From Clostridiales bacterium UBA3705 (GTDB taxonomy: Bacteria > Bacillota_A > Clostridia > Oscillospirales > Oscillospiraceae), in contig DFIE01000153.1 in NCBI GenBank assembly GCA_002372735.1, positions 1-11,396 on the forward strand: a stretch of DNA of 11,396 bases, in the 5' to 3' direction. The notes under the pieces are model-generated. The model was not told where the DNA came from, did no database searches, and saw only the letters and a program-made list of their open reading frames with translations. Below, one piece after another: positions 9,743 to 11,316 of the stretch (the stretch's first letter is position 1; every line of letters begins with the position of its first letter). A program made the translations under genes and the position numbers.

Positions 9743-9771
9743 ATTATACACGATAAAGGCGGGTCTGTCAA
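9743..9771 (-). promoter_or_regulatory. Perfect consensus sigma-A promoter of ylxM-ffh-rpsP-khpA
   Basis: On the minus strand: TTGACA (9771-9766), exactly 17 bp, TATAAT (9748-9743). Both hexamers match consensus fully. The start point should fall near 9736, giving a leader of about 25 nt before ylxM. The -35 box forms part of one arm of the inverted repeat 9760-9793. Confidence 0.9.
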
Positions 9772-9800
9772 GGTTTTTTTCTTGACAGACCCGTTTTTTT
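9760..9800 (+). terminator. Inverted repeat with T-run, overlapping the ylxM promoter
   Basis: A perfect 13-bp stem (9760-9772 with 9781-9793, CGGGTCTGTCAAG on the plus strand) has an 8-nt loop. Seven Ts follow at 9794-9800, making a textbook terminator for plus-strand RNA, yet no plus-strand gene lies to its left. For minus-strand RNA from the SSB-like gene the same stem is followed only by CCTTTATC, a poor U-run. It starts 5 bp beyond the SSB-like stop codon. Confidence 0.75.
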
Positions 9801-10416
9801 ATCCCGGCACAGGCGCCAAAACCCGGGCTTCGGCGGCGGAGAGCTCGTAGGCGGTGCGGCGCAGCTGGGTGCCGTCGGGCAGGTGCTTGGTATAGTCCCG
9901 GCTCTGCAGCCGGCCCACCAGCTGCACCGGGGTGCCCACCGGCAGGTCCGCCAGGGCCCGGGCGGTCCGGCCCCAGACAATGCAGGGCAGATAGTCCGTG
10001 CGGTGATAGGGGCGGTTTACCGCCAGCATCAGGTCCAGGATCTCCCGGCCCAGAGGGGTGGCGCGGAACACCGGCGGCCGGCAGAGATTGCCGGTGACCT
10101 CCGCCCGGTTGTCCTGGGGCTCCAGGCTCAGCTCCAGGCTTTGGGCGTACACCGAGATCAGCAGATGCCGGCCTGTGGGGGTGTGCTGGTTGTAGGAGCG
10201 GATCTGCCCCACCACCCGGATCACCTCCCCCCAGGCCACGTCCGCCCGGGCCAGCAGGTCCTCCGCCGCCAGGATCCGGATCCGGTCCACGGCCCCGGAA
10301 AGCCGCTCCACCGCCAGGGTGAAGGCGAAAAACCGCCGCCCGTGATTCTCATGGGACAGCGCCGGGGCCGTCTCCATCACGCCCACCAGCGTGATCTGAT
10401 TGATGGTAGTTTCCAT
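9799..10416 (-). CDS. Tandem OB-fold single-stranded DNA-binding-like protein
   Basis: A 205-residue protein with two SSB-type OB folds in one chain. The first (about 6-96) starts NQITLVGVMETAPALS and is divergent. The second (about 104-198) is close to bacterial SSB: VTGNLCRPPVFRATPLGREI, LAVNRPYHRTDYLPCIVWGR and VGRLQSRDY. Bacterial SSB normally has one fold per chain plus an acidic tail ending in PF; here the chain ends VLAPVPG with no acidic tip. It is probably not the housekeeping SSB, which usually sits between rpsF and rpsR. A role in repair, competence or replication restart is possible but unproven. The start ATG at 10416 follows GAGGTGG. The gene stands alone, divergent from the SLH gene. 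Confidence 0.88.
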   Translation of the reverse strand: METTINQITLVGVMETAPALSHENHGRRFFAFTLAVERLSGAVDRIRILAAEDLLARADVAWGEVIRVVGQIRSYNQHTPTGRHLLISVYAQSLELSLEPQDNRAEVTGNLCRPPVFRATPLGREILDLMLAVNRPYHRTDYLPCIVWGRTARALADLPVGTPVQLVGRLQSRDYTKHLPDGTQLRRTAYELSAAEARVLAPVPG

Positions 10417-10531: not shown

Positions 10532-10565
10532 TTGACAATATATATATATATATATATGGTATACT
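10532..10565 (+). promoter_or_regulatory. Putative SLH-gene promoter with repeat-filled spacer
   Basis: A perfect -35 TTGACA (10532-10537) is followed by (AT)10, then GG and TATACT (10560-10565). TGGTATACT reads as an extended -10. The spacing between these boxes is 22 bp, too long for sigma A; loss of two or three AT units would give 18 or 16 bp. At 17 bp the current sequence offers TATGGT (10555-10560), a weaker -10. The active boxes are therefore uncertain. The leader would be about 70 nt. Confidence 0.6.
10538..10557. repeat. (AT)10 dinucleotide microsatellite
   Basis: Ten uninterrupted AT units sit exactly between TTGACA and the GG that precedes TATACT. Tracts of this length are prone to slipped-strand changes in copy number, and in this place each change alters promoter spacing by two bases. 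The tract also lies upstream of the divergent SSB-like gene, though 120 bp from its start. Confidence 0.95.
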
Positions 10566-10641
10566 TAATTTGAAGAAGGAACCGTCGTTTCTTTTTGCAG
10601 CAAGCAGAAGCGTGAAGCCTGATCCGAGAAAGGAGGACATG

Positions 10642-11316
10642 ATGAAGAAAAAAATCATTGCCCTGATGCTGGCCGCGGCGCTGGTGTGCGGGGCGCTGCC
10701 GGCAGTTCACGGGGCCCAGGGGGAGTTCTCCGACGTGCCGGCGGGCGTGTGGTATACAGAATGCGTCCGGTTTTGTGCCCAGGAGGGGCTGATGGTGGGC
10801 ACCTCTCAGGACGTCTTCTCCCCCGCCCTGCCCATGACCCGGGGGATGTTTGTCACTGTATTATACCGCTTTCACAAGGCGGAGCCTGTGGAGACACCGT
10901 TCTCCTTTGAGGACGTGGCGCCGGGCGCCTATTACGCCGGCCCCATCCGCTGGGCCGCGGCCAACGGGATTGTAAACGGCATGTCCGAAACCGTCTTTGC
11001 CCCCGATCAGCCCGTTACCCGGGAGCAGGCCGCCTGTATGCTGAACCGCTTTATGGCCTGGTCTGACAACCCGTGGTATTATTGCGAGATTGACGCAGAC
11101 CTGACCACAATTGATTTTGATGAAGTATCAGACTACGCCAAGGCCTCGGTACAAAAGATTTTGGAAAAAACCATTATGGTGGGTGATAACCATGAAAATT
11201 TCAGGCCCCGGGACTCCCTGAGCCGGGCGGAGGCCGCGATGATCCTGTCCCGGCTGGACTACTGGACCGACTGGGCGAAGGATTACCATGTGCCCACTTA
11301 CCCCATCCTTCCCTAA
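10642..11316 (+). CDS. Small secreted protein with three SLH domains
   Basis: A 224-residue exported protein likely to bind pyruvylated or similar secondary wall polymer at the cell surface. Residues 1 to about 24 are a signal peptide (MKKKIIALMLAAALVCGALP and following). Three S-layer homology domains fill the rest: about 29-83 (FSDVPAGVWYTECVRF, ending near MTRGMFVTVLYRF), about 88-140 (FEDVAPGAYYAGPIRWAAANG, VTREQAACML) and about 158-208 (FDEVSDYAKASVQ, LSRAEAAMIL). No other domain remains beyond a short tail, so it looks like a wall anchor without cargo. Two ATGs follow the AGGAGG; the second (10642) has the better spacing of 5 bases, the first (10639) only 2. It is the only plus-strand gene here. 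Confidence 0.9.
   Translation: MKKKIIALMLAAALVCGALPAVHGAQGEFSDVPAGVWYTECVRFCAQEGLMVGTSQDVFSPALPMTRGMFVTVLYRFHKAEPVETPFSFEDVAPGAYYAGPIRWAAANGIVNGMSETVFAPDQPVTREQAACMLNRFMAWSDNPWYYCEIDADLTTIDFDEVSDYAKASVQKILEKTIMVGDNHENFRPRDSLSRAEAAMILSRLDYWTDWAKDYHVPTYPILP

Follow-up and report, generated by a model that had tools for sequence, protein, structure and literature searches.

The closest described systems are those of hifA/hifB in Haemophilus influenzae and of porA in Neisseria meningitidis. In the former, a (TA)9-11 tract lies between the divergent genes hifA and hifB, and its length is held to set the spacing between the -10 and -35 boxes; one H. influenzae strain is described with two hifA-hifB loci carrying (TA)10 (PMC2651432, PMC3899988). 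In porA, a polyG stretch stands between the -35 and -10 boxes, and its length correlates with the transcript level (PMC3899988). For Clostridioides difficile, a review on phase variation gives invertible promoters as its example (PMC11868660). A group of promoters in front of envelope genes that switch by slippage would give Clostridia another means of varying their surface from cell to cell.

The DNA analysed here, hereafter the window, is a stretch of 11,396 nucleotides in which a simple repeat without interruption occupies the space between a -35 and a -10 box. According to the sequence and a consensus scan, a perfect -35 hexamer TTGACA (10532-10537, plus strand) is followed by an uninterrupted (AT)10 tract (10538-10557, plus strand), also retrieved by the tract scan, which forms the promoter spacer. 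Two -10 boxes lie at the far end on the same strand. Box a, TATGGT (10555-10560), was found by the consensus scan, matches the consensus in four of six positions, overlaps the end of the tract and is 17 bp away from TTGACA. Box b, TATACT (10560-10565), matches in five of six positions, lies 22 bp from TTGACA and has TG-G in front (TATG-G-TATACT); the TG at 10557-10558 makes it an extended -10 box, and GG separates it from (AT)10. The perfect TTGACA, the (AT)10 tract and the extended -10 box with its 22-bp gap are each found at the positions given to them in an earlier, sequence-only reading of this DNA, from which the pair formed by TTGACA and TATGGT at 17 bp, with 10 of 12 matches in the consensus scan, is absent.

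The (AT)10 run is the sole tract on the plus strand of the 11,396 bases scanned (at least four units for AT/TA and at least five for GC, CA and GA). Under a first-order Markov model, 2e-11 such runs are expected in the window and 2e-9 in tract-free intergenic sequence, and a chance origin of the tract was rejected on these expectations. The hexamer TTGACA itself occurs 10 times in the whole window versus 4.1 expected in shuffles, with one of 200 shuffles reaching 10.

The distance between TTGACA and either -10 box is a function of the number of AT units, n. It amounts to 2n-3 for box a and to 2n+2 for box b, the boxes overlapping and standing five bases apart, which gives 17 and 22 bp for n = 10, 15 and 20 bp for n = 9, 13 and 18 bp for n = 8, and 11 and 16 bp for n = 7. 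By arithmetic only, gaining or losing units can make the spacing functional or non-functional, the functional range being that outlined by the background promoter pairs described below and by a review (PMC10911233). The sequence-only reading had calculated that the loss of two or three units would bring TATACT to 18 or 16 bp, and this is right. It had also taken n = 10 for a likely OFF or weak state, which our analysis does not support; that claim uses box b alone, and we set it aside because TATGGT sits at 17 bp. Judged by these spacings, the stronger state may instead be n = 10, with n = 9 (15 and 20 bp) as the weaker one. Box a is weak, with its four of six matches and GG in the melting region, and this counts against the slippage reading favoured below. 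Furthermore, a promoter with an extended -10 box can function in the absence of a -35 box (PMC10911233), so any effect of n would be blunted.

Downstream of the promoter, a ribosome-binding site AAAGGAGG (10629-10636, plus strand), recognized by eye, precedes the gene of an SLH protein (10639-11316, plus strand), which starts at ATG 10639 or 10642 and has 225 codons counted from ATG 10639. Three stretches of the protein were assigned by Pfam to SLH domains (PF00395, E 3.1e-28), and its hydrophobic N-terminus is, by eye, a candidate signal peptide. The proposal that the tract is a promoter-spacer repeat before a protein with three SLH domains is supported, and the layout recurs before envelope-type genes in related genomes. 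In the opposite direction lies a single-strand-binding-protein-like (SSB-like) gene (9799-10416, minus strand). Its minus-strand promoter candidates are four tied pairs with 8 of 12 matches each, and just one of them, TATACC/TATATT, extends over some of the tract, its -35 box matching in three of six positions; a bidirectional promoter of the hif type was rejected on these counts. Elsewhere on the minus strand, a consensus promoter TTGACA-17-TATAAT (12 of 12 matches; 9743-9793) stands before a ylxM-like gene and beside a 13-pair terminator-like hairpin, while a Sirtuin gene (SIR2, PF02146; 5312-6058, minus strand) belongs to a region that also holds an SRP54 (ffh) gene, with trmD-, rimM- and rpsP-like frames, named by eye, as neighbours.

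A direct orthologue of the window locus was searched for among its relatives and none was found. The SLH protein falls in its own two-sequence cluster at 100% identity, the next cluster standing at 46%, and SLH matches, present in 349 of 400 genomes, show 31-48% identity among the matches listed and were taken as paralogues. For the SSB-like protein, identity reaches up to 68%, with 65% in proteins named Oscillospiraceae bacterium (best 120 of 7,416); its relatives on genome contigs comprise 11 loci with at most 49% identity, and an (AT)6 tract is present in none of these 11. The Ffh-like protein of the window is 73% identical to the Ffh-like proteins of genomes G002 and G004.

When we inspected 400 genomes from the family of G002 (locus L002, Oscillospiraceae bacterium CE91-St43), the pattern TTGACA-N(0-4)-(AT)6-N(0-12)-TATAMT was detected at 9 places in five genomes, and its reversed control at 0. 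Tracts of (AT)8 are present in 36 of the 400 genomes. Among 30 tracts of at least eight units, whose loci were fetched blind to TTGACA and are apparently one per genome, 11 have a perfect TTGACA 0-2 nt upstream, an arrangement with a chance of about 0.0015 per tract by a uniform-base estimate. The wider pool of 45 distinct tracts (44 from family genomes and one viral) is an incomplete census, fetched in part by TTGACA patterns, and contains 19 tracts with a perfect TTGACA at this distance and three more with TTGACT. Both the layout and its recurrence are matters of observation. Relaxing the pattern to four units yields 12 versus 9 places in the five matching genomes, which had been preselected for long tracts, and a further sample, nested in the earlier one (370 genomes, 11 matching), extends the survey to seven-unit tracts and adds no independent genomes. 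The strict pattern is rare, with one of 378 phylum genomes versus three of 400 family genomes (the latter by our own reading of the rows), and because it is rare in the phylum too, we do not regard the layout as a hallmark of the family. On viral contigs, TTGACA-(AT)8-TATAMT was found on a single contig (L059, minus strand). Here TTGACA directly overlaps an (AT)9 tract, followed by GTTATAAT, before a small protein; the locus is uncounted under the 0-2 nt gap rule of the wider pool.

The spacing was analysed in 23 tract loci, 20 with TTGACA and three with TTGACT, by taking as -10 box the first T-A-n-n-n-T hexamer with at least four matches to TATAAT located 10-26 bp from the -35 box. This first hexamer lies at 15 bp in 12 loci, at 19 bp in six, at 16 bp in two, and at 17, 23 and 11 bp in one locus each; any -10-like hexamer at 16-18 bp is present in five of the 23. 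The window and L090 are both at 17 bp. Twenty of the 23 loci stand at 11, 15, 19 or 23 bp, a series in which neighbouring values differ by two AT units and from which 17 bp is almost missing. As background, 722 TTGACA-N(10-24)-TATAAT places were retrieved from 12 of the tract-bearing genomes; the 150 places listed come from four genomes, and 138 of them fall at 16-18 bp. Counting any hexamer at 16-18 bp, three of the 20 TTGACA tract loci versus 138 of 150 background places gives a Fisher p of 4.6e-13, a value to be read with the rule having been set after the loci were seen, the background demanding an exact TATAAT and retaining two of its 150 places that are tract loci themselves, and the loci being non-independent, several of them similar, in what we guess to be about nine independent groups. 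Spacings of 15, 19 and 20 bp are unfavourable according to a model reported in the review (PMC10911233). In our reading, since the first hexamers are mostly at 15 or 19 bp, most tract promoters would rest one unit off the spacing optimum. The 15/19 bp pattern is predicted neither by an ordinary promoter, which would give 16-18 bp, nor by a neutral tract, for which 17 bp would be as common as 15 or 19 bp. MerR-type promoters have a 19-bp spacing; considered as an explanation, they fail to fit the loci at 15 bp.

The genes standing downstream of the 23 tract promoters encode SLH proteins in two cases according to Pfam (L053 and L090) and, in seven (L051, L073, L076, L082, L085, L086 and L130), a small protein that starts with MRIILDTDK or alike. 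By eye, lipoprotein-like products are encoded at five loci (L050, L054, L064, L120 and L137), the product of L058 looks secreted, and those of L055-L057 look membrane bound. Of the 10 downstream proteins scanned, five could be assigned to a Pfam family with an E value of at most 0.01. The SLH paralogues L053 and L090, both in genome G287, are 86% identical in DNA across a 220-nt stretch that covers the promoter and the beginning of the gene, and have 9 and 10 units, respectively. The five closest small-protein promoters (L076, L082, L085, L086 and L130; flank identity 0.58-0.88) carry 9, 11, 9, 9 and 9 units, and in nine promoters whose tract is followed by GAT..TGTRC the unit number ranges from 8 to 11, with flank identities as low as 0.40. 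Differences in unit number were seen between paralogues and similar promoters only. The only cross-source pair, L076 and the viral contig L107, has equal n and 100% identical DNA over 1,985 bp; the two may be one strain, and the pair was set aside as a test of unit-number stability because the DNA is identical.

The members of the small-protein family are 65-93 amino acids long and have AT-tract promoters in common. The two members tested had no match in PHROGs, and L104 in G287 resembles a copy with an early stop. Among viral contigs, the small-protein promoter is present on one (L107), which also carries one of the three loci found for the small protein itself; a search of plasmids and phages with L076 DNA gave no match. 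At the expected transcript start of many tract promoters we noticed, by eye, an inverted repeat (TTGTRCGAAA...TTTCGYACA or alike), which lies just after the tract in L053, L055, L076, L050, L064 and others and makes a 5' hairpin possible. Six leaders were folded, with z values against shuffles of -0.94 for the window, -1.5 for L055, -2.2 for L090, -2.6 for L076, -4.7 for L053 and -4.9 for L050; two of the six (L053 and L050) are far below the shuffles and L055 is nearly within them. The possible hairpin at the transcript start of the window (10573-10596, plus strand; 10 pairs, loop CGTC) is weak, falling within the shuffles, and was discarded as not above chance.

According to the reading that we favour, with a probability of roughly 0.5, the SLH gene is driven by a sigma-A promoter with a simple-repeat spacer. 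Its repeat number would set the distance of TTGACA from two overlapping -10 boxes, and slippage by one unit would make the promoter stronger or weaker, as is held for hifA/hifB. Since the repeat number sets the distance to both boxes, one-unit slippage should shift promoter strength; as with n = 10 being the stronger state, the slippage rate and the difference in expression are what we infer. A broader reading, which we advance tentatively and with some doubt, is that Oscillospiraceae hold scattered AT-repeat contingency promoters parked at 15 or 19 bp, one unit off the 17-bp optimum. Single slippage events would then turn ON the SLH proteins, the lipoproteins and the small-protein family, which may have a mobile origin, in a minority of the cells, and the window would be a copy in the 17-bp state. 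If this parking at 15 or 19 bp is true, minority reads should show the 17-bp allele.

An ordinary extended -10 promoter, in which TATG-G-TATACT does the work, the TTGACA 22 bp away plays no part and the length of the tract has little influence, is rather unlikely, though a serious contender. TRTG before the -10 box is a feature of Gram-positive promoters, and TATG-G-TATACT resembles such a motif. The TRTG motif before the -10 box is mentioned in one source (PMC6940355). TG-n-TATACT is present in the window, TATGnTATA occurs in L053, L055, L090 and partly L056, where 20-22 bp separate the second box from TTGACA, and the predicted hairpin, itself not above chance, would begin at the expected start site of box b. 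What such a promoter leaves unexplained, however, is the frequent TTGACA abutting rare tracts, together with the 15/19 bp pattern in loci where the extended -10 is poor or absent.

The tract could otherwise act in fixed tuning or as a supercoiling sensor, a flexible alternating AT spacer whose off-optimum length weakens a near-consensus promoter, with selection holding n and no switching. In the listed background, ordinary spacers have mixed sequence, so a given spacer length can be had without a pure tract, and n is not the same in the two close paralogues, nor in similar promoters (9 and 11). We deem this explanation improbable, even though the position of most tract promoters at 15 or 19 bp, and not at 17 bp, is also what selection favouring weak or topology-sensitive promoters would produce, and n = 9 is kept in four of five small-protein promoters. 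Very improbable, finally, is that the tract serves the divergent SSB-like gene as an A+T-rich upstream element, or is a regulator binding site. Weak promoter candidates on the minus strand (8 of 12 matches) do have the tract upstream of them or partly inside them, but the minus-strand boxes are poor, the SSB-type loci of genome contigs have no (AT)6 tract, and recurrence tracks TTGACA.

The layout, its recurrence and the spacing pattern agree with a spacer that switches by slippage in the manner of hifA/hifB. Compared with hifA/hifB, the window has the same structural features, with a dinucleotide tract in the promoter region of both; there, however, one tract serves two divergent genes and phase variation is demonstrated, whereas the window has good boxes on the SLH side only and is known from sequence alone. 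porA shares with the window a repeat inside the -35/-10 spacer but has a mononucleotide tract with a one-base step, whereas the step in the window is two bases, so that each box can take up only every other spacing. L053 and L090 of G287 resemble the window in TTGACA-(AT)n-GATATA, in the double -10 layout and in the SLH protein downstream; they differ from it in encoding other SLH proteins (that of L090 also with Ig-like domains), in having n = 9 and 10, and in carrying GATATAAT and GATATATT where the window has GGTATACT. Among the matches listed from one open literature library, covering titles and the starts of abstracts, there was no report of promoters that switch by an AT repeat, either for SLH genes or within Oscillospiraceae. 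We present the window as a candidate repeat-in-spacer promoter, a kind whose mechanism is already known; what is new is the pair of -10 boxes and the tendency of the tract promoters to lie off the optimum.
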